Shown piece by piece: positions 1,584 through 49,963 of a stretch of DNA of 64,000 nucleotides (the first letter of the stretch is position 1; each line of letters opens with the position of its first letter). The notes below the pieces were generated by a model, which saw only the letters and a program-made list of their open reading frames with translations, was not told where the DNA came from and searched no databases. The position numbers were made by a program, and so were the translations under genes. Where the stretch lies: the NCBI GenBank assembly GCA_028684065.1, contig JAQUGO010000004.1:229528-293527 (forward strand), written 5' to 3'. This DNA is from Sulfurospirillaceae bacterium. GTDB taxonomy: Bacteria > Campylobacterota > Campylobacteria > Campylobacterales > Sulfurospirillaceae.

Positions 1584-2279
1584 ATGAAACACTCAGCAAC
1601 ACTGGATTTACTCAGCGACAAAGTTGTTTTATATGCTGAGGATGAAGCAGGAATCCGTGATGTTGTTGTTGAAATTTTAGAGTTATTTTTTCACAAAGTT
1701 ATCGCTGTAAAAGATGGTGATGAAGCGCTGGAGCAGTTTGAGATAACACCTCCTGATATTTTGATTTTTGATATTTGTTTGCCAAAAACAGATGGACTTG
1801 ACGTGATACAAAAAATTCGTAAAAAGCACAAAAATATCCCTGTGATTATTTTAAGTGCTCACGCAGGGCATGAATATTTATGGCGAGCAGTGGAGCTAAA
1901 AATCACAAAATATCTCGTCAAACCCTTTAAAAAAGAGGATCTTGAAGAAGCTTTGAGACTCTGTTGTGAGGAGTTATCTGGCAATCAAAGTAGCATCATG
2001 CTCACTGAAACAATATTTTATGATGCGTCTAAAAAAATTGTCATAGTTGATGGTAGAGAGTCTAAACTACCTAAAAGTGAAAGCAGATTGCTTGAATATC
2101 TGCTTGAAAATAAAAATAAAGTGATTTCTTGTGAAGTGATAGAAGAATACTTGTGGGGATATGATGGTGGCTCACACTCCAAAGAAGCGGTGAAAGCTTT
2201 GATAAAAGAGTTGCGCAAAAAAATGGGCAAAGATGTTATAAAAAATATTTATGGCTTGGGGTATACCCTTGAAATTTGA
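1584..2279 (+). CDS. OmpR-type response regulator (REC + winged helix)
   Basis: REC motifs YAEDE, IFDICLPKTDG, VKPF; C-terminal winged helix ending KNIYGLGYTLEI. Confidence 0.9.
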   Translation: MKHSATLDLLSDKVVLYAEDEAGIRDVVVEILELFFHKVIAVKDGDEALEQFEITPPDILIFDICLPKTDGLDVIQKIRKKHKNIPVIILSAHAGHEYLWRAVELKITKYLVKPFKKEDLEEALRLCCEELSGNQSSIMLTETIFYDASKKIVIVDGRESKLPKSESRLLEYLLENKNKVISCEVIEEYLWGYDGGSHSKEAVKALIKELRKKMGKDVIKNIYGLGYTLEI

Positions 2280-4023
2280 TTTTAAAAAAATTGATAGTCT
2301 CTTTTCCACAAAATCAAAAACCATTATTCTTGTTTCTTTCATTATGCTACTGCTCTCTTTATTTTTTATCTACCTTCGTTATGCCGATGAAAAAAGATTC
2401 TTACAAGAAAAGCAAAATTTCTATATTGGAAAAGTGCAGAATATTTACATCGAAAGTAAAAAAAGTACCGATAATTTTTTTATCAATCGTGCTTATGCGA
2501 ACTTAGATTCTTATGGTATTAAATTAGCCCTTTCTCATCAAGATGCCCATGATTTAGAAAAACTTTCTCAACCTAGATGGCGCATTTTAAAAAAAGAACA
2601 TCCTTCCTTACAATCAATGGCTTTTTATGACACTAATTTTAGGTTACTCAGCGTCCTAGGTAATGCACAATCTAGCACTATGGATGGTAAACGAAGTGAT
2701 AAAAAAGAGGCGCGCAGTGGCTTTTGTTATTCAGGTGATTTTCTGGTTTATAAAATCATTGTTCCAGCTTTAAATGAAAAATCCGAAACAATAGGCTATC
2801 TTGTCCTGAGTATAGAGCCTGCTTTTTTTCTCAATGAAATTAAAAAACTGATAGGTTTTAGCGGATATATTATCTATCAAAATAAAATTCTCGATAATCA
2901 ATTAGTCAAACATGAACATTACGATGCGGCACTTCTTACAGAGTTTTTAGCACGAAATGATGAAATGCTAGATAGGATAACGCAAGAAGGGCGATATTTT
3001 AAAATTCACAAAATAAAAGAGCACGATTTTTCAAGCAATAAAATTTTTAATATCATTTTCTTTCAAGATATTACACAAGAACAAGTGCAACTTAAAGAAG
3101 CGATTGTAGAGAGTTTTTTTATTGCCTCCTTCCTTTGGATAGTCATTTTAGTCATTTTAAATTACAGTTTTAATATTCTCATTAAGCGCCTAGAAGAGTC
3201 ACACCAAGAGTTGGTGTATAAAGAAGAAAAATTAGCACAACTTAACTTAAATTTAGAATCAAGAGTGGCAGAAGAGATTGAAGAGAGAATGAAAAAAGAG
3301 TATGAAGTGCATGAAAAAGAGCGCATGCTCATTCATCAAAGCAAGCTGGCCAATATGGGAGAAATGATAGGTAATATTGCCCATCAATGGCGACAACCCT
3401 TAACGGAGCTCAGTGCCATTTTAATTGCAATAGAGCTCTTTTTTGAACGAGGAAAACTCAGCGCTCAAAAGCTTTCCGAAAAAATTGAAGCGGCACAAAA
3501 GCAGATAAGTTTTATGTCTCATACCATTGAGGATTTTAGAAATTTTTTTGCCTCTGGTAAACAGAAAAAAATTTATAACCTCGAAGAACCTGTCAAAGAA
3601 GCTCTCAATCTGATTTATTCCTCTTTGCACAACAATCATATTGAGGTTGCTTTACATGTCGATGCTCCAATAATGATAGAGGGCTACGCCAATGAAATAG
3701 CCCAAGCTATTTTAAATATCTTGAGTAATGCTAAAGATATTCTCATTGAGCGTGCAACGTCTCATCCCAAAATCATGATTACGATTCAAGAACATCATGC
3801 TAAAGGAAGCATTACCATAGAAGACAACGCAGGGGGCATTCATATTGAGCCAATTGAAAAAATATTTGAACCTTATTTCAGTACCAAGCATGCTAAAAGT
3901 GGTACCGGTATTGGGCTTTACATGTGTAAAAGCATTATTGAAAAAAATAATCGTGGAGAATTAAATGTTACCAATACGGAAGAGGGAGCAGTGTTTACTA
4001 TTATTTTGGATAAATCACTTTAA
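2251..4023 (+). CDS. Membrane sensor histidine kinase with periplasmic Cache-like sensor
   Basis: Two TM segments flanking about 240 aa, H-box IAHQWRQPL, N/G boxes and GTGIGLYMCKSIIE; overlaps the preceding RR. Confidence 0.9.
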   Translation: MAWGIPLKFDFKKIDSLFSTKSKTIILVSFIMLLLSLFFIYLRYADEKRFLQEKQNFYIGKVQNIYIESKKSTDNFFINRAYANLDSYGIKLALSHQDAHDLEKLSQPRWRILKKEHPSLQSMAFYDTNFRLLSVLGNAQSSTMDGKRSDKKEARSGFCYSGDFLVYKIIVPALNEKSETIGYLVLSIEPAFFLNEIKKLIGFSGYIIYQNKILDNQLVKHEHYDAALLTEFLARNDEMLDRITQEGRYFKIHKIKEHDFSSNKIFNIIFFQDITQEQVQLKEAIVESFFIASFLWIVILVILNYSFNILIKRLEESHQELVYKEEKLAQLNLNLESRVAEEIEERMKKEYEVHEKERMLIHQSKLANMGEMIGNIAHQWRQPLTELSAILIAIELFFERGKLSAQKLSEKIEAAQKQISFMSHTIEDFRNFFASGKQKKIYNLEEPVKEALNLIYSSLHNNHIEVALHVDAPIMIEGYANEIAQAILNILSNAKDILIERATSHPKIMITIQEHHAKGSITIEDNAGGIHIEPIEKIFEPYFSTKHAKSGTGIGLYMCKSIIEKNNRGELNVTNTEEGAVFTIILDKSL

Positions 4024-4026
4024 AAT

Positions 4027-4058
4027 CTCCCTTTTTTCACCCTATTTCAAATTATACT
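4027..4058 (+). promoter_or_regulatory. Promoter element copy 1 (upstream of tsdA)
   Basis: CTCCCTTTTTTCACCCTATTTCAAATTATACT; 27/32 identical to copy at 5147. Confidence 0.6.
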
Positions 4059-4084
4059 TTATCTAAAATACTAAGGAGGCTATT

Positions 4085-5083
4085 ATGCAAGTAATGTCAA
4101 AAATGGTTTTGGTTTTTGGGGTACTTTCTCTTGTGTCATTAGGGGCATTTGATGTGGGAGAATTGGCAAAACGTGGAGATAAAGGGTTTAAGCCAGTCGT
4201 GGTTAAAGACTGGAGCGCACCTGATGAAAAGACAATTCCTAACACTATGTTTGGCGATTATGTGCGCTATGGCAAAGCATTGATTCAAGAGACTTATAAA
4301 TATATTGGACCTGAAGTTGCTGATAAAAAGATGCGTTATGCAGGGAATAACCTCGCATGTAATAACTGTCACTCAGAGGCAGGTACTAAAAAATACTCGG
4401 CTGGTTTTATGGGAACATTTGCAAATTTTCCACAATACCGTAACCGCGAAGATACTATTGGCACAATCGAAAACCGAATTAATGGATGTATGCAACGCAG
4501 TATGAATGGAAAGCCATTGCCTGAAAGTGGTAAAGAAATGAAAGCGATGGTGGCTTACATGTACTGGTTGGGACAAGGTGTGCCTATTGGTGCCAAAGTT
4601 GAAGGTTCATCATTACCCAAAGTCAATCGTAAAATGATTATGAGTCGTGCGGCAGATCCAATAGCGGGTGAAAAAGTATATAAAGAAAATTGTGCTTCAT
4701 GCCACGGCGATAATGGCCAAGGTGTGAAACGTGAAGGTAAAGCGAACGGGTATGAGTTCCCACCACTTTGGGGACAAGATACCTACAATACAGGAGCTGG
4801 TATGTTTAGGGTCATTAAAGCAGCTGATTGGATTATCGCTAATATGCCTTTAGGTGCAAGCAATGATGCGCGTATTTTAACCGACGCACAAGCTTATGAT
4901 GTGGCTGCTTATATCAATAACTATGATAAACCACATCCTATCAAGGCTAATAAAGATAAAGATTTTCCTGATACCGTTGTAAAAGCAGCTGATAGCGATA
5001 TTGGACCATACAGTGATGATAAAAATCGTCATCAACATAAATTTGGGCCTTATCAAGGTATTATTATCCCTGCTAAAAAATAA
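4085..5083 (+). CDS. tsdA: TsdA-type dihaem cytochrome c (thiosulfate dehydrogenase / tetrathionate reductase family)
   Basis: Signal peptide; CNNCH and CASCH haem sites; RINGCMQRSMNG segment matching the TsdA Cys-ligand region; TsdA-like C-terminus GPYSDDKNRHQHKFGPYQ. Confidence 0.83.
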   Translation: MQVMSKMVLVFGVLSLVSLGAFDVGELAKRGDKGFKPVVVKDWSAPDEKTIPNTMFGDYVRYGKALIQETYKYIGPEVADKKMRYAGNNLACNNCHSEAGTKKYSAGFMGTFANFPQYRNREDTIGTIENRINGCMQRSMNGKPLPESGKEMKAMVAYMYWLGQGVPIGAKVEGSSLPKVNRKMIMSRAADPIAGEKVYKENCASCHGDNGQGVKREGKANGYEFPPLWGQDTYNTGAGMFRVIKAADWIIANMPLGASNDARILTDAQAYDVAAYINNYDKPHPIKANKDKDFPDTVVKAADSDIGPYSDDKNRHQHKFGPYQGIIIPAKK

Positions 5084-5090
5084 TTCTCCG

Positions 5091-5119
5091 AAGGCAAGCA
5101 TCATGCTTGCCTTTACTCT
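5091..5119 (+). terminator. Intrinsic terminator-like hairpin after tsdA
   Basis: AAGGCAAGCA-TCA-TGCTTGCCTT perfect 10-bp inverted repeat followed by T-rich sequence. Confidence 0.75.
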
Positions 5120-5146
5120 TTTCATTACTTAATATCTTTAAGATTT

Positions 5147-5178
5147 CTCCTTTTTTTCACCCTTTTTAACTTTATACT
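5147..5178 (+). promoter_or_regulatory. Promoter element copy 2 (upstream of ttrB)
   Basis: CTCCTTTTTTTCACCCTTTTTAACTTTATACT; same spacing (16 nt) from TCACCCT to TATACT. Confidence 0.6.
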
Positions 5179-5209
5179 GCTATTCAGTAAATATTTTAAA
5201 GGAGTAATC

Positions 5210-6007
5210 GTGAGTGAAAAAAATTCTCGAAGAAGCTTTTTAAGGCAAGGTTTTGGTATCGCCGCCCTGAGTGGTTTAGCCGCGACTTCTGCATCAGCGC
5301 TCTCGTTGCAAAATCCAGGACGTGATGCAGGAGAGATGCGTTATGTTGGCGATAAAAACAAGCATTTGGTGATGGTGATGGATTTGCGAAAGTGCATCGG
5401 ATGTCAGGCCTGTACGGCGGCGTGTAAAGTTGAGAACAAAGTACCTACGTCTCAGTATCGAACCTTTGTCTTAGAAACTGAAATAGGCGAGTTTCCTGAT
5501 GTCCGTAAAGGGTTTTTACCACAACTCTGTAACCATTGCGATAACCCTTCGTGTGTCAGTGTTTGTCCAACAGGAGCTACCTTTAAACGCAAAGATGGCG
5601 TTGTTGTTGTTGATAATACTATTTGTTGGGGATGTGGCTATTGTTTGAGTGCATGTCCTTACGATAAACGCTACTTTAATACCAAAACAAAAACAGCCGA
5701 TAAATGCAACTTTTGCGTGCAACGAGTTGATCAAGGATTACTTCCTGCGTGTGTAGAGACATGTGTCGGAGGGGCCAGAGTTTTTGGAGATATGAACGAT
5801 AAAACATCTGAGGTTTATCATCTTTTGCACACTTTTTCAACTACCGTTTTAAAACCAGAACAGGGTAACAAACCGCAAGTATTCTATATAGGGCTTGATA
5901 ATAAAATCAACGAACTTTTAAACTCAACACAAAGCTTAGATGACATGGTTAAAAAACATGATGGCATACATGCTGAGTGGTCTAAAACATTGATAAAGGA
6001 AATGTAA
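5210..6007 (+). CDS. ttrB: Tetrathionate reductase-type 4Fe-4S electron-transfer subunit (TtrB-like), Tat signal
   Basis: RRSFLRQG Tat motif; several CxxCxxC clusters (CIGCQACTAAC, CNHCDNPSC, CWGCGYCLSAC, CNFCVQRV). Confidence 0.78.
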   Translation: MSEKNSRRSFLRQGFGIAALSGLAATSASALSLQNPGRDAGEMRYVGDKNKHLVMVMDLRKCIGCQACTAACKVENKVPTSQYRTFVLETEIGEFPDVRKGFLPQLCNHCDNPSCVSVCPTGATFKRKDGVVVVDNTICWGCGYCLSACPYDKRYFNTKTKTADKCNFCVQRVDQGLLPACVETCVGGARVFGDMNDKTSEVYHLLHTFSTTVLKPEQGNKPQVFYIGLDNKINELLNSTQSLDDMVKKHDGIHAEWSKTLIKEM

Positions 6008-6008
6008 T

Positions 6009-7178
6009 ATGAATACCTTAATCTCTTCTATAACCCCCAATATTCCATGGGGTATTGATGTACCAAATTATTTTTGGTTTACAGGCAGTTCTGCGGCAGC
6101 TTTTATCATTTCAAGCTTTGCCCATGTTTTTGGGATGGAGCGCTACAAACCAATCGCTGGATTTTCGCTTTTAATGGCATTTGTGCTCCTCGTAGCCGCG
6201 CCACTTAATCTGATTGATGATTTAAAACAACCAGGTAGAGTGCTTAATTTTTTTATGTATGGGTGGGAAAATTTTGGAACGTCTCCTATGAAATGGGGCG
6301 TTATTTTGTTGATGGCCTATCCGGTTTTAATCTTTTTTGAGGCTATCTATATTTACAGACCCTATTTTGTCAAAAAAATGGCAACACTGAGTGGTGTTTC
6401 GCATACATTTTATGGCCTATTAACACTAGGTCGAATGGGGATGAGCCAAGAAGATTTTGACAAAGACCATCGTGTAGGTAAACTACTGGGTATCATTGGT
6501 ATTCCTTTAGCTTTATGTGTTCATGGCTACACCGGTTATATCTTAGGGGTTGTTCATGCTAATGCCCTTTGGCATACCCCACTAATGCCGATTTTATTTT
6601 TAGCTTCAGCGATGGTATCTGGAACAGGTTTTCTTATCGTTATCATTCCTATCTTTCAGAAGTTTTTTACCTCTATGGGCAGTGTCAATCACGACACAAT
6701 GGTGGATTTGGCTAAATTATTAGCACTTTTTATTGTTATTGATTTAGTGATTCGCTTTTTATGGTTAACTTTTGCTATGCCTTTTAATGGTGAAGAGAAA
6801 TACCTTGTATATGCCTTTTTTGAACTTAATTTTCATGAAGTTCTTTATGTGGAATATCTATTGTGTTTGATTATTCCTATGATTGTTGGCTTTAGCGCTT
6901 TACGTAACAATTTTATAGTGCTTTATTGTGCTGGTATTTTATCAGTGGTTGGTGTTTGGCTTTTTAGATGGAATACGGTCATTGGTGGTCAGAGTATCCC
7001 TAAAAGTGCTCCAGGCTTTTTGCATTATAGCCCAGATATATTTTCACAAAGTAGTATCGTTTCAATTTTTTCCAATTGGGGTATTTTAATTGCGCTTGTC
7101 TGTTTTATCTTAGTCATTTTTCCTTGGGATGAGGAGATGGTAGAAAGTTATAGTAAAAGGGTAAATCATGGAAAATAG
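6009..7178 (+). CDS. ttrC: NrfD/TtrC-like membrane quinol-interacting subunit
   Basis: Polytopic NrfD-family protein between the FeS and Mo subunits. Confidence 0.75.
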   Translation: MNTLISSITPNIPWGIDVPNYFWFTGSSAAAFIISSFAHVFGMERYKPIAGFSLLMAFVLLVAAPLNLIDDLKQPGRVLNFFMYGWENFGTSPMKWGVILLMAYPVLIFFEAIYIYRPYFVKKMATLSGVSHTFYGLLTLGRMGMSQEDFDKDHRVGKLLGIIGIPLALCVHGYTGYILGVVHANALWHTPLMPILFLASAMVSGTGFLIVIIPIFQKFFTSMGSVNHDTMVDLAKLLALFIVIDLVIRFLWLTFAMPFNGEEKYLVYAFFELNFHEVLYVEYLLCLIIPMIVGFSALRNNFIVLYCAGILSVVGVWLFRWNTVIGGQSIPKSAPGFLHYSPDIFSQSSIVSIFSNWGILIALVCFILVIFPWDEEMVESYSKRVNHGK

Positions 7179-10100
7179 TAGAAGAAATTTTTTAATTGGC
7201 ACAGGCATTGTTGCCGCTTCGGCTTCGATTGTTGGGTATAAAGATACTCTTGGTGCGGTAGCTTTGCTTAAAGACAAGGGAGAACGTGCCAAAGATAGTA
7301 TTTATTTTAATGCTTCTGCTGCTGAATTTAGCGTGAAAAACAACACCTTTAGTCCTAATGAGCATTATACGATGGCAAACAGTACATGTAATGGATGTAC
7401 AACGCATTGTGGTGTTCGCGTCAAGATCGAAAAAGAGAGCGGTAAGGTTGTTCGCGTATTTGGAAATCCTTTTCATCCGCTTTCCTCTGATCCGTGGTTA
7501 CCCTATGCGACATCCATTGAGCAGAGTTTTACATTTTTAACGCAAACCCAACACGAACCAAATGCTTATCGCTCCAGTATGTGTGCACGTGGAAATGTGG
7601 CATTTGATAAACTCAATGATGCTTTTCGTGTTCTCAAACCACTCAAAAGAGTTGGCAAACGAGGTGAAAATAAGTGGGTGGAAATTGACATTGAACAACT
7701 ATTGGACGAGGTTGTTAAGGGTGGAAATTTATTTGGTGAAGGTGATGTAGAAGGTTTAGCGGCGACACGTGATCTTGAAACGCTTATTAACCCAGATGAA
7801 CCAAGTTTTGGTTCACGTGCCAATGGTTTATGTATTATTGGTACGGCTGATGAAGGAAGACAAAATTTCATTGTTCCTCGTTTTGTCCAATCGTATGGAA
7901 CCGTGAATTTTATGGGGCATACATCTATTTGCGGACTTTCTATGCGTGCTGGAGAAGCGGCCTATTTGGGGGATTTTAAAAAGTCACCACATTTAAAGCC
8001 AGATTTTGAACATTGTGAATACCTCTTAAGTATTGGCACAGCACCTGGGCAAGCAGGGAATCCTTTCAAAAGACAAGGAAAATTACTGAGTGAAGCGCGC
8101 ACGAATGGAAGACTAAAATATGCAACTGTTCTTCCGATGCAATCTAATGCTGACACCATTGCGATGGGTGATAAAAGCAGTTGGATACCCGTTTTGCCAG
8201 GGGGAGATTTAGCTTTTGTGATGGGTTTATTGCAAATTATTATTGAAAAGGATATGTACAATCTTTCGTATCTTAGTATTCCAAGTGAGAAAGCAAAGAT
8301 AACGCTTAAAGAAGCTTCATGGACTAATGCAACACATCTTGTGATTCAAGATGAAGAGGGCTTTGGGACAATTCTTAAAGAGGGTGAGATGATACTAGTG
8401 CTTGATAGCGCCGATAATCAACTCAAAAATGCCGATGATGTCACGCAAGGCGTGCTTGAATACTCTGGCGAGGTGATATTGAAAGGTAAAATATATACGG
8501 TTAAAACAGCCTTTACACTGTTGCGAGAATCTGCCAATGACTATACGCTTGACATGTATGCCAAAGAGAGTGGTGTGAGTGTTGCGAAGATGCAAGAAGT
8601 GGCACATGAATTTTGCTCTCATGGACGCAAAGTTGCGATTGATTGTCACGGGGGTACGATGCATACAACAGGTTTTTACACAACGTACGCCATTATGATG
8701 CTAGGCGCTATGGTTGGTAACCTGAACTATAAAGGTGGTATGAGTGCTGGGGGTGGAAAATTTAAAGATTTTGCAGGCAAACAGTATAACTTGCTAGCGT
8801 ATAAAGGCAAACCTCAAGTGAAAGGTGCGCGCATCGACAAAGCTAGAATGCCGTATGAAAAAACCAATGAATTTAAAGCTAAAAAAGAAGCGGGCATCAA
8901 CCCTTATCCTGCAAAAGATGCATGGTATCCCCTTGCGGCTGCTTTGGAATCTGATGTCATTAGTAACAGTGCCCATCAATACCCTTATGCGCTTAAAACA
9001 TTGATTTCGTGGAATGCCAATTTTATATATGGGCAAAGTGGTTCGGAACATATCAAAGCACTTTTGCAAGATCCTAAAAAAGCAATTCCTCTTTTTATTG
9101 CGATTGATCCTTTTATCAATGAAACATCGAAATATGCTGATTACATAGTTCCAGATTCTGTGTTGTTTGAAACATGGGGAGCACTTGGTGTTTGGGCAGG
9201 ATGTCAAACGAAGGTAAGCACTATTCGTTTTCCTATTATCAAACCAGCTCAAGCAACCTTTAAAAATGGAGAGCCTATTTGTATGGATAGTTTTTTAATA
9301 GAACTTGGCAAAAAGCTTGGACTTCCAGGCTTTGGTAAGGGAGCAATAAAAGGTGAAAATGGCGAAAATTTTGCATTTGATAGACCACATGATTTTTACA
9401 TCAGAGCGTTTGAAAATATTGCAATGGATGGGACTCCTGTGCCAGATTGTAGCGACGAAGAGATAGAGCTTAGTGGCATCAGTGCTTTTAAACCACTATT
9501 GCAAGAGATATGTAAAGATAATTGGAAAAAAACTGCGTATGTCATGGCACGAGGGGGCCGTTATGAAGATAAAACCAAAAGTTACAATGGTGAATGGCTT
9601 TCACATCCTTATAAAGGAAATATTCATATTTATAATGAAGAATTAGGGACGAAGAAAAATGCGCTTAATGGAAAACGATACAGTGGTGTTCCAAAGTATT
9701 ACATGCAACGAACAGCTATGGGACAAGACTTTGCATCGTTATATCCCAAAGCTAAATTCCCACTGAGTGCTTTTAGCTATAAATCCAATGTACTCTCCCA
9801 AGCGATGGCTTCTAGTAGCTTGCTCAAAGAGATTCATTACACAACCTATGTGGATGTTAATCCCAAAACAGCACAAGATTTTGGTTTGAAACATGGTGAT
9901 TTGGTGAAGGTTTCGTCTGCCAATGGTGAAGTGAGTGGTTATCTTAGACTTAGAAATGGGCTTTATCCTAGTACCATAGGTATTGAACACGGTGCTGGTC
10001 GAGAAGGTGAAGGTGCTGTGGATGTAGAAATTAATGGAAAAGTTTTGAAAGGTCTCGCTATGAGACGTTCAGGTGTTAATATTAATAAACTAGGTCTTTT

Positions 10101-10191
10101 AGATCATAGTAGAGCGGCAACAATAAGTGATTTTGTTGTTGGTTCAAATGCAAGGCAAGCCATTCCTGTTGCTATTAGCAAGATTGGATAG
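7168..10191 (+). CDS. ttrA: Tetrathionate reductase-type molybdopterin catalytic subunit (TtrA-like), Tat signal
   Basis: SRRNFLIG Tat motif; N-terminal CxxCxxxC...C FeS site (STCNGCTTHCG...SSMCARGN); candidate Mo-ligand Cys in HTSICGLSMRAGEAA; DMSO-reductase superfamily architecture; about 1000 aa. Confidence 0.78.
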   Translation: MENSRRNFLIGTGIVAASASIVGYKDTLGAVALLKDKGERAKDSIYFNASAAEFSVKNNTFSPNEHYTMANSTCNGCTTHCGVRVKIEKESGKVVRVFGNPFHPLSSDPWLPYATSIEQSFTFLTQTQHEPNAYRSSMCARGNVAFDKLNDAFRVLKPLKRVGKRGENKWVEIDIEQLLDEVVKGGNLFGEGDVEGLAATRDLETLINPDEPSFGSRANGLCIIGTADEGRQNFIVPRFVQSYGTVNFMGHTSICGLSMRAGEAAYLGDFKKSPHLKPDFEHCEYLLSIGTAPGQAGNPFKRQGKLLSEARTNGRLKYATVLPMQSNADTIAMGDKSSWIPVLPGGDLAFVMGLLQIIIEKDMYNLSYLSIPSEKAKITLKEASWTNATHLVIQDEEGFGTILKEGEMILVLDSADNQLKNADDVTQGVLEYSGEVILKGKIYTVKTAFTLLRESANDYTLDMYAKESGVSVAKMQEVAHEFCSHGRKVAIDCHGGTMHTTGFYTTYAIMMLGAMVGNLNYKGGMSAGGGKFKDFAGKQYNLLAYKGKPQVKGARIDKARMPYEKTNEFKAKKEAGINPYPAKDAWYPLAAALESDVISNSAHQYPYALKTLISWNANFIYGQSGSEHIKALLQDPKKAIPLFIAIDPFINETSKYADYIVPDSVLFETWGALGVWAGCQTKVSTIRFPIIKPAQATFKNGEPICMDSFLIELGKKLGLPGFGKGAIKGENGENFAFDRPHDFYIRAFENIAMDGTPVPDCSDEEIELSGISAFKPLLQEICKDNWKKTAYVMARGGRYEDKTKSYNGEWLSHPYKGNIHIYNEELGTKKNALNGKRYSGVPKYYMQRTAMGQDFASLYPKAKFPLSAFSYKSNVLSQAMASSSLLKEIHYTTYVDVNPKTAQDFGLKHGDLVKVSSANGEVSGYLRLRNGLYPSTIGIEHGAGREGEGAVDVEINGKVLKGLAMRRSGVNINKLGLLDHSRAATISDFVVGSNARQAIPVAISKIG

Positions 10192-12102: not shown

Positions 12103-12609
12103 ATGAAAAAGACAATTTATTTACTAAGTGTTGCAGCACTACTAGCTACAGGAATTTATGCGTATGATAATGCTAATCAACAAGGGATGATGCAACCAGG
12201 AATGCAAATGGGTATGCAATCAGGCATGATGCAGTCAGGAATGCAACCATGTGGCATGATGCAAAAGGGAATGCGTGGTGGTCAAAATGGTATGCAAATG
12301 ATTACAAGACTTAATTTAAGTGATGACCAACGACATCAATTAGCCATTTTACGTGCTGAGATGAAGTTAGAGATGACAAAACTACGTGACCCAAAAATGA
12401 TGAATGCGATGCAAAATTTAATGAGCGCTGATACTTTTGATAAACAAGGTTTTATTAAAATGCAAAATGATATGCATACGAAAATGCTAGCCGTAAGAGC
12501 CAATCATATGGAAAAAGTATTTAACCTTTTAACCAAAGAACAACGTACTGAGCTCAAAGCATTGATGAATAATCGACCGATGAGACCAATGGCACCAAAA
12601 CAATCATAA
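12103..12609 (+). CDS. Methionine-rich Spy/CpxP-like periplasmic protein
   Basis: Signal peptide; LTxxQ-like motifs (LNLSDDQ, LTKEQ); 27 Met in 168 aa by manual count. Confidence 0.75.
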   Translation: MKKTIYLLSVAALLATGIYAYDNANQQGMMQPGMQMGMQSGMMQSGMQPCGMMQKGMRGGQNGMQMITRLNLSDDQRHQLAILRAEMKLEMTKLRDPKMMNAMQNLMSADTFDKQGFIKMQNDMHTKMLAVRANHMEKVFNLLTKEQRTELKALMNNRPMRPMAPKQS

Positions 12610-12642
12610 CTTTAAAGCCTCTGCTATTAGAAATTTAGTATA

Positions 12643-12685
12643 ATAAAGTTCTCTCTTGCAAAGTCAATACTAGAGAGAACTTTAT
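12643..12685 (+). terminator. Hairpin between the Spy-like gene and racR
   Basis: ATAAAGTTCTCTC(12643-12655)/GAGAGAACTTTAT(12673-12685): perfect 13-bp stem, 17-nt loop. Confidence 0.6.
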
Positions 12686-12701
12686 CTAAGAGGTGCCAAG
12701 A

Positions 12702-13373
12702 ATGATTAATGTTTTGATGATTGAGGATGATACAGAGTTTGCTGAAATACTCAGTGAATACTTAGCGAAGTACAATATCAAAATTACCAATTATGAAGAT
12801 CCTTATTTGGGACTGAGTGCTGGCATTAAAAAATATGATTTACTCATTTTAGATTTAACCCTTCCTGGTATAGATGGTTTAGAAGTTTGCAAAGAAATTG
12901 TTGCAAAATACGATATCCCCATTATCATTTCTTCCGCTCGTAGCGATATCAGTGACAAAGTGATAGGGCTTCAAATTGGTGCAGATGATTATTTGCCAAA
13001 GCCTTACGACCCTAAAGAGATGTATGCACGTATTCAAAGTCTAATTCGCCGTTACAAAAAAACAGCTGCTGTTGAAGAAATACAATCTCACAGTCATTTT
13101 GTCGTAGATGAAAAACGACATGAGATTAGTTTCAAAGGCGAAGCGCTCAATCTAACGCCTGCTGAATATGAAATTCTTTCTTATTTAATACGCCAAAATG
13201 GCTTTTCTATTTCACGTGAACAGTTGGTGTATAATTGTAAATCGCTTAAAGATAAAGGCTCTAAAAGTTTAGATGTTATTATCGGACGACTGCGCACCAA
13301 AATAGGTGATGACTCAAAAAGCCCTGAGTATATTCACTCTGTACGTGGCATAGGATATAAGTTAATTGGATGA
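12702..13373 (+). CDS. racR: OmpR-family response regulator, RacR-like
   Basis: MINVLMIEDDTEFAEIL..., REC + winged helix; synteny with Campylobacter jejuni dnaJ-racR-racS-recR. Confidence 0.8.
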   Translation: MINVLMIEDDTEFAEILSEYLAKYNIKITNYEDPYLGLSAGIKKYDLLILDLTLPGIDGLEVCKEIVAKYDIPIIISSARSDISDKVIGLQIGADDYLPKPYDPKEMYARIQSLIRRYKKTAAVEEIQSHSHFVVDEKRHEISFKGEALNLTPAEYEILSYLIRQNGFSISREQLVYNCKSLKDKGSKSLDVIIGRLRTKIGDDSKSPEYIHSVRGIGYKLIG

Positions 13374-14617
13374 TTAAAAACTCAATTATCAACAAAATTA
13401 GTGCTATCTTTATTTTATCGCTTCTCTTGCTGGTGATGTTTTTTGCGCTTTTATTAGAGCAACAAAGTGAAAAAAATCTTGAAAATATGAAACAACGCCA
13501 GTTTCAATCCATTAACTATCTTTTAGTTATGTACCGTAATAATATGCAACCCAATGATATAGAAGAGTATTTTAATAACTTTGGACTCAAACGCGTTACT
13601 AATAAAAATCTTAAAAATTCTGTATTGGACAAGGGTGTCATCATCTTTCAAAAACTCTCTCCTATCAGTCGATTTTCTTCCATTATTTATAATGATCGCT
13701 ACTACCTTTATATTGATAATTTTGAATCAAATGCTCTTCTTGAAAGTCAGGATTATAAAAATTTTAATGAAAATTTGTGGATAGTTTTTGTACTAGCACT
13801 GCTCATTTTTATTTACATGTACGCTTCTATTTACAAAAGTATCTCTCCTTTGAAAAGCTTAAGTGCACAGATTCGAAAGTTTGCGGGCGGTGATTTGAAT
13901 ATTGAATGTAAAAGTGAACAAAATGATGAAATAGCAGAAGTCGCCAATGAGTTCGATAGGGCGGCTAAAAAGATACGAGATTTGATTCATTCCCGTCAAC
14001 TTTTTTTGCGTACAATTATGCATGAGCTGAAAACACCTATTGGCAAAGGCCGTATTGTTTCAGAAATGCTTGATGACGAAGTAGCGAAAAAACGACTTGT
14101 AGGTGTTTTTGCTAGGTTAGAATTATTAATTGCTGAATTTTCCAAAACTGAACAATTGGCTTCTCAAAGTTACAATCTTAAAATAGAAGAGTATACCTTT
14201 TTGCATGTTCTTGACCAAGCTATTGATTTATTGATGTTGGATGAACAAAAAAAAGAAGAACAATTGAGTATAGATGGTGATAGTAGTTTCTGTGTCAAGG
14301 TAGATTTTGAGTTGATGGCTTTAGCGCTTAAAAACATCATTGATAATGCTATTAAAAACAGTAGTGAGCATAAAGCGTATATCTGTATTGAAGAGCAAAA
14401 AATAACGATAAAAAATAAAGCAGAACCTCTTAAAATGCCTATTCAAGAGTACATGCAGCCTTTTGTTTCAGGGTCCAAAACATCAGGTAGTGGGCTTGGA
14501 TTAGGCCTTTATATTGTTCAAAATATAGTACAACTGCACAACCTTGAGTTAGTCTATGATTATAATCATGGAATGCACCAATTTAGTATTGATTTTCAAA
14601 AGGTACAAAGCGTATGA
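13370..14617 (+). CDS. racS: Sensor histidine kinase, RacS-like
   Basis: Two TM segments, HAMP, IMHELKTPIGKGR H-box, GSGLGLGLYIVQ G-box; ATGA overlap with racR. Confidence 0.8.
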   Translation: MIKNSIINKISAIFILSLLLLVMFFALLLEQQSEKNLENMKQRQFQSINYLLVMYRNNMQPNDIEEYFNNFGLKRVTNKNLKNSVLDKGVIIFQKLSPISRFSSIIYNDRYYLYIDNFESNALLESQDYKNFNENLWIVFVLALLIFIYMYASIYKSISPLKSLSAQIRKFAGGDLNIECKSEQNDEIAEVANEFDRAAKKIRDLIHSRQLFLRTIMHELKTPIGKGRIVSEMLDDEVAKKRLVGVFARLELLIAEFSKTEQLASQSYNLKIEEYTFLHVLDQAIDLLMLDEQKKEEQLSIDGDSSFCVKVDFELMALALKNIIDNAIKNSSEHKAYICIEEQKITIKNKAEPLKMPIQEYMQPFVSGSKTSGSGLGLGLYIVQNIVQLHNLELVYDYNHGMHQFSIDFQKVQSV

Positions 14618-49941: not shown

Positions 49942-49963
49942 CACTTAAGAAGGAGAAAACAGA

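Follow-up and report, generated by a model that had tools for sequence, protein, structure and literature searches.

A predicted operator common to tsdA and ttrBCA in a Sulfurospirillum lineage, and a candidate tetrathionate two-component system of Campylobacterota

Gene content of the locus

The window, i.e., the whole stretch of 64,000 nucleotides that was analysed, derives from a Sulfurospirillum genome (G000) and carries at positions 1584-10191 six collinear open reading frames (ORFs) on the plus strand, which encode a response regulator (RR), a histidine kinase (HK), TsdA, TtrB, TtrC and TtrA. The original prediction had placed all six genes correctly, and the enzyme identities that it had given, TsdA and TtrBCA, were upheld by family profiles, phmmer, residue comparison and tree placement. 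The genes, together with the predicted promoter elements and terminator, are as follows:

1584..2279, plus strand: response regulator of the OmpR/PhoB family, predicted cognate to ttrBCA (PF00072 and PF00486; D63 in the phospho-acceptor motif; conserved neighbourhood)
2251..4023, plus strand: histidine kinase with a periplasmic dCache_3 sensor, predicted cognate to ttrBCA (PF14827, PF02518; H-box)
4026..4046, plus strand: Ttr box before tsdA, 11-bp direct repeat TCTCCCTTTTTTCACCCTATT (top PWM site of the window, 22.1 bits)
4053..4058, plus strand: predicted tsdA promoter, -10 element TATACT, separated from the box by 6 bp
4085..5083, plus strand: tsdA, dihaem thiosulfate dehydrogenase / tetrathionate reductase (Pfam domains, phmmer, residues, tree placement)
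5090..5114, plus strand: intrinsic-terminator-like hairpin after tsdA (dG -16.0 kcal/mol; counterpart in G307 -15.8)
5146..5166, plus strand: Ttr box before ttrB (second PWM site of the window, 19.6 bits; conserved at Campylobacterota ttrB promoters)
5173..5178, plus strand: predicted ttrB promoter, -10 element TATACT (from sequence)
5210..6007, plus strand: ttrB, 4x[4Fe-4S] subunit with Tat signal (NF011569 as best match, 275 bits; 16 Cys)
6009..7178, plus strand: ttrC, NrfD-type membrane subunit (PF03916, E 4e-39; TtrC is the top NCBIfam match)
7168..10191, plus strand: ttrA, molybdopterin catalytic subunit with Tat signal (NF011567, 924 bits; TtrA clade)

The gene order polA-mntP-RR-HK-tsdA-ttrBCA-ygjP-dnaJ is fully collinear between the window genome and G307 (MAG STD2_16, L083/L162). 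No tsdB was found among the ORFs between HK and ttrB in the window. Adjoining dnaJ-ygjP, a Spy/CpxP-like protein is encoded, followed by an RR/HK pair (window 12103-14617), an arrangement that is conserved in the genus.

Tetrathionate reductase and TsdA

The ttrA product matches the NCBIfam TtrA profile over its full length, the runner-up being PhsA with 154 bits. Since its 924 bits stay below the equivalog cut-off of 1750 bits, the protein is taken to represent a divergent Campylobacterota branch of TtrA, named here by clade rather than as an equivalog. In a DMSO-reductase tree, the rows of which are BLAST-matched ORFs, it clusters with TtrA of other phyla, apart from PhsA, ArrA-like and other DMSO reductases; the placement of the Mo subunit, which had been proposed earlier as a check, thus falls on the TtrA side (SH-aLRT 99). 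The Cys residues of the FeS motif and the Mo-ligand Cys (C74, C77, C81, C139, C255) are invariant in the alignment, and the Tat signal motif reads SRRNFL. Elsewhere in the compared loci, ttrA of L164 (G299, 7001-10020) lies in two separate frames and is apparently broken, with RR-HK-ttrBC intact, and L071 (G061, 6378-9482) carries a second, distant TtrA-like enzyme, scoring 460 bits to TtrA, along with TtrB- and TtrC-like partners.

TsdA combines a PF21342 SoxA/TsdA domain with Cytochrom_C and is similar to A. vinosum TsdA (E 6e-45 in phmmer); in the tree it groups among the Sulfurospirillum tsdA genes. It contains two haem sites (CxxCH at 92 and 203), a Cys at the position of the haem-1 ligand (GCMQRS at 134) and, as residue comparison indicated, the haem-2 Met ligand within NMPLGA. 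Haem 2 is of the Asn-Met type, as in C. jejuni TsdA, A. vinosum TsdA being Lys-Met, and the equivalent of C. jejuni K252 is Ile. The C. jejuni enzyme, which is likewise dihaem with a Cys haem-1 ligand and Asn-Met at haem 2, shows a bias toward tetrathionate reduction (PMC5146829), but the window tsdA differs from it in sitting inside a ttr operon with a Ttr box. The Asn beside the haem-2 Met is insufficient alone to fix the direction of catalysis, and the window TsdA is most likely a co-induced second tetrathionate reductase, the direction being part of the prediction. The other role offered earlier for TsdA, that of an electron carrier, is considered less likely, as the protein keeps its catalytic Cys ligand along with the two haems. 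TsdA-like genes lie beside ttrA also in Polaromonas (L126, 13233-14252) and Glaciimonas (L156, 13466-14203), these being further ttr-tsd pairings. The enzymes of the locus are ordinary, and what is novel is their regulatory arrangement.

Sensor kinase and response regulator

The RR is built of Response_reg and Trans_reg_C domains and the HK carries the H-box AHQWRQPL at 377. An AlphaFold model of the HK sensor (pLDDT 84.9) found its best Foldseek matches among dCache-type sensors, including KinD, TlpA and DctB. The dCache_3 domain was detected in 31/31 Campylobacterota ttr kinases tested and PF12974 (Phosphonate-bd) in none of the 31, while two gammaproteobacterial kinases encoded beside ttrBCA, used as positive controls for PF12974, were both recovered with E 1e-32 or better. 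The earlier impression that the kinase does not resemble Salmonella TtrS is therefore borne out, the sensor being unrelated.

An RR/HK pair beside ttrBCA, with no tsdA in between, was found in the same genus (L062-L069) and in other Campylobacterota (L070, L073-L079 and many of L082-L123), located upstream, downstream or divergent relative to ttrBCA. As judged from these loci, RR-HK-ttrBCA without tsdA is the usual Campylobacterota layout. The pair had been described as dedicated to TsdA together with TtrBCA; it is better read as a regulator of ttrBCA generally, with no tie to tsdA by ancestry. An ancestral linkage of tsdA to this two-component system was rejected, because the system remains with ttrBCA whereas tsdA does not. 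Three Desulfobulbaceae MAGs (L086, L088, L089) contain a Campylobacterota-type ttrBCA (TtrA 62-64%) with neither RR/HK nor the box described below, which probably reflects transfer or a binning error.

The Ttr box

Spacer comparison and alignment of ttrB upstream regions revealed the Ttr box, an 11-bp direct repeat (about TCYCCCTANTTTCYCCCT) located 6 bp before the -10 element, the 6-bp spacing being found in 37/42 loci. The box precedes ttrB wherever RR/HK are present. At ttrB of the RR/HK-less loci L072, L086, L088 and L089 none was found (scores ≤2.4 bits), L111 and L090 being uninformative in this comparison owing to Ns or a short upstream. A PWM was trained on 31 loci. The sites used for training were chosen by consensus similarity, and the held-out set was limited to the window, G307, G308 and those loci that lack RR/HK. 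In a scan of the 64-kb window the two top sites were those at 4026 and 5146, to be compared with a simulated maximum of 14.4 +/- 1.6 bits (largest 18.3 among 30). Both boxes also score far above the next upstream (12.6) when the upstreams of the 69 window ORFs of at least 100 aa are considered, and 0/20000 spacer shuffles reached the score of the tsdA box. The two direct-repeat copies before tsdA and ttrB, which the original prediction had missed, are far beyond chance. A third site at 49947 on the minus strand (17.0 bits) was discarded, as it is within the null range and is not upstream of a minus-strand gene. No box for autoregulation was found before the RR gene with the PWM (best 9.1 bits).

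Among 24 Sulfurospirillum genomes searched, 11 contain the exact pattern CTCYCTANTTTCTCNC, each a single time and in every case 15-47 bp ahead of the ttrB ORF. The window-type box with zero mismatch is present twice in G000 and twice in G307, at tsdA and ttrB, and once in G308, at ttrB. From its own box, -10 element and terminator, tsdA is predicted to be a separate transcription unit. The view of TsdA and TtrBCA as one module therefore holds in the sense of one regulon, since a shared regulon is plausible, and not in that of one transcript or complex. The linkage of tsdA to ttr would be explained by this element, and the two units are probably switched on together.

Distribution and origin of the linkage

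TsdA is present in 24/24 Sulfurospirillum genomes and TtrA matches in 15/24; tsdA is located within the ttr operon in two of the 24, namely G000 and G307. In the remaining 22 it has a different location, as a rule next to phsABC and a two-component system of its own. At loci of the L042 type, tsdA has a radical-SAM gene and phsABC downstream of it and is divergent from genes that encode an HK, an OmpR-type RR and a dCache_3 sensor protein; at L042 itself (5102-6633), this ancestral tsdA locus shows the stand-alone dCache_3 sensor protein by RR and HK, and the promoter of tsdA bears a direct repeat of TTGACG. At the ancestral site of G000 and G307, the radical-SAM gene and its neighbour are kept, and tsdA and the old two-component system are gone. 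No PhsA orthologue was found in G000 and G307 (best about 34% identity), and G308 has one at >90%. G308, a MAG like G307, carries polA-mntP-RR-HK-ttrBCA at the same mntP site, with ttrB directly after HK and no tsdA; its tsdA occupies the ancestral position, divided between the ends of contigs C127 and C231. In L185, L186 and L188 mntP adjoins ygjP without a ttr operon.

The tsdA upstreams of G000 and G307 each contain a Ttr box of 22.1 bits and lack the old repeat. In the other 22 genomes the PWM score upstream of tsdA is ≤4.1, and TTGAC[GA]-N5-TTGAC[GA] is found at tsdA in 17 of them. Since the linked tsdA genes have the box and not the old repeat, tsdA appears to have lost its ancestral TTGACG repeat and gained the Ttr box, i.e., the promoter element changed along with the location.

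In the trees, HK and RR of G000, G307 and G308 form one clade each, and so do their TtrB proteins, with weaker support (93); the PolA tree places G000 and G307 as sisters. TtrC and TtrA of G307 group with those of G061 and G122, and one clade with the window proteins was rejected (p-AU 0.005 and 0.0005). Identity of TtrA to the window protein is 65% for G307 and 82-84% for G308. This grouping suggests that G307 probably acquired ttrC and ttrA from another Campylobacterota lineage in place of its own, RR, HK, tsdA and ttrB being kept.

Proposed mechanism and alternatives

The best explanation, to which we assign a probability of about 0.78, would be a Campylobacterota tetrathionate-respiration operon, RR-HK-ttrBCA, in which tsdA was captured between HK and ttrB and both came under one operator type. 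The kinase would sense a sulfur oxyanion, most likely tetrathionate, via its periplasmic dCache domain and phosphorylate the OmpR-type regulator, which is predicted to bind the 11-bp direct repeat; at ttrB, and in this lineage at tsdA as well, the repeat overlaps the -35 region. With the regulator at both boxes, tsdA and ttrB would be induced together. TtrBCA would then reduce tetrathionate with electrons of menaquinol, the presumed donor, passed through TtrC, and TsdA would do so with electrons putatively supplied by cytochrome c. As C. jejuni TsdA is thought to draw electrons from the Qcr/cytochrome c branch (PMC6195509) and TtrC is of the NrfD type, the two reductases may receive their electrons from different parts of the chain.

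The direction of TsdA could be the reverse, so that as a thiosulfate dehydrogenase it makes tetrathionate, feeds TtrBCA and keeps the sensor on. Such a circuit has a functional precedent in ttrRS-ttrBCA-tsdBA of V. parahaemolyticus, where TsdBA oxidizes thiosulfate (PMC11293645), and one report describes TsdA enzymes as bidirectional (PMC6879331). We regard this reading as possible, at clearly less than even odds, given that no tsdB lies beside the window tsdA, that haem 2 is Asn-Met as in the C. jejuni enzyme and that thiosulfate oxidation, at +198 mV, needs a high-potential acceptor. An acceptor of this kind is harder to come by for a genus that, like Sulfurospirillum, lives mainly under anaerobic conditions. 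It is about equally doubtful that the kinase responds to another cue, be it thiosulfate, polysulfide or a redox signal: a dCache fold does not in itself identify the ligand and the Foldseek neighbours bind diverse small molecules, but ttrBCA is the only exact predicted target in most ttr-bearing genomes of the genus, and dedicated single-target systems usually sense their substrate.

As to the linkage itself, its presence in so few genomes of the genus (2/24) and the terminator of tsdA would fit a chance landing, with tsdA expressed independently of RR/HK. This is very improbable, since the tsdA box is the top match in the window to a PWM derived from other species, has the fixed 6-bp spacing to the -10 element and is kept in both linked genomes, where it replaces the different repeat of other tsdA genes. 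Two independent captures of tsdA at the same spot are also unlikely. They are suggested by the best tree, in which the linked TsdA copies of G000 and G307 are not sisters; against them, the AU test leaves a single clade unrejected (p-AU 0.16), the spacer layout, box and terminator are common to both linked genomes, and PolA places these genomes as sisters.

Relation to known systems

The open-access literature yielded no report of the 11-bp direct-repeat operator and none of a Campylobacterota ttr operon that contains tsdA. The closest known counterpart is the V. parahaemolyticus ttrRS-ttrBCA-tsdBA system, where ttrBCA and tsdBA are both under the control of TtrRS and the signal is produced by TsdBA (PMC11293645). 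Both have a two-component system by ttrBCA and one operator type for ttrBCA and the tsd gene, the window carrying the same box before ttrB and tsdA as would be expected of such a joint regulon. However, the Vibrio TtrS has a Phosphonate-bd sensor in place of the dCache_3 kinase with its OmpR-type RR, its operator is an inverted repeat (GTGG-N4-CCAC) rather than an 11-bp direct repeat, a tsdB gene is present in another gene order, and TtrRS autoregulates, whereas the window RR has no box upstream. The ttrRS-ttrBCA systems of Salmonella and Shewanella share with the window the two-component system by TtrBCA, exported TtrA and TtrB and the NrfD-type TtrC, but their PF12974 sensor is unrelated to dCache_3. 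Their TtrR is a LuxR-type regulator. Salmonella has no tsdBA (PMC11293645). Within the same genus, the two-component system of PCE respiration also employs an OmpR-type RR, which binds a direct repeat overlapping -35, yet its operator is CTATW-N17-CTATW and it serves organohalide genes (PMC7755780).

We consider it likely that Campylobacterota own an independently evolved tetrathionate two-component system, analogous to TtrRS with a non-homologous sensor, that consists of a dCache_3 kinase, an OmpR-type RR and an 11-bp direct-repeat operator and normally has one target promoter. One Sulfurospirillum lineage would have added tsdA as a second target by swapping the tsdA promoter and regulator for the ttr operator, thus converging on the ttr-tsd circuit of Vibrio. 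For Campylobacterota, several species of Campylobacter and Helicobacter among them, this yields an operator defined at the sequence level and a candidate for a new class of tetrathionate sensor. It is also a clear before-and-after example of a regulator change in a respiratory gene. Since the same pairing is found in Vibrio under an unrelated sensor, a selectable benefit of co-expressing TsdA with TtrBCA is suggested.
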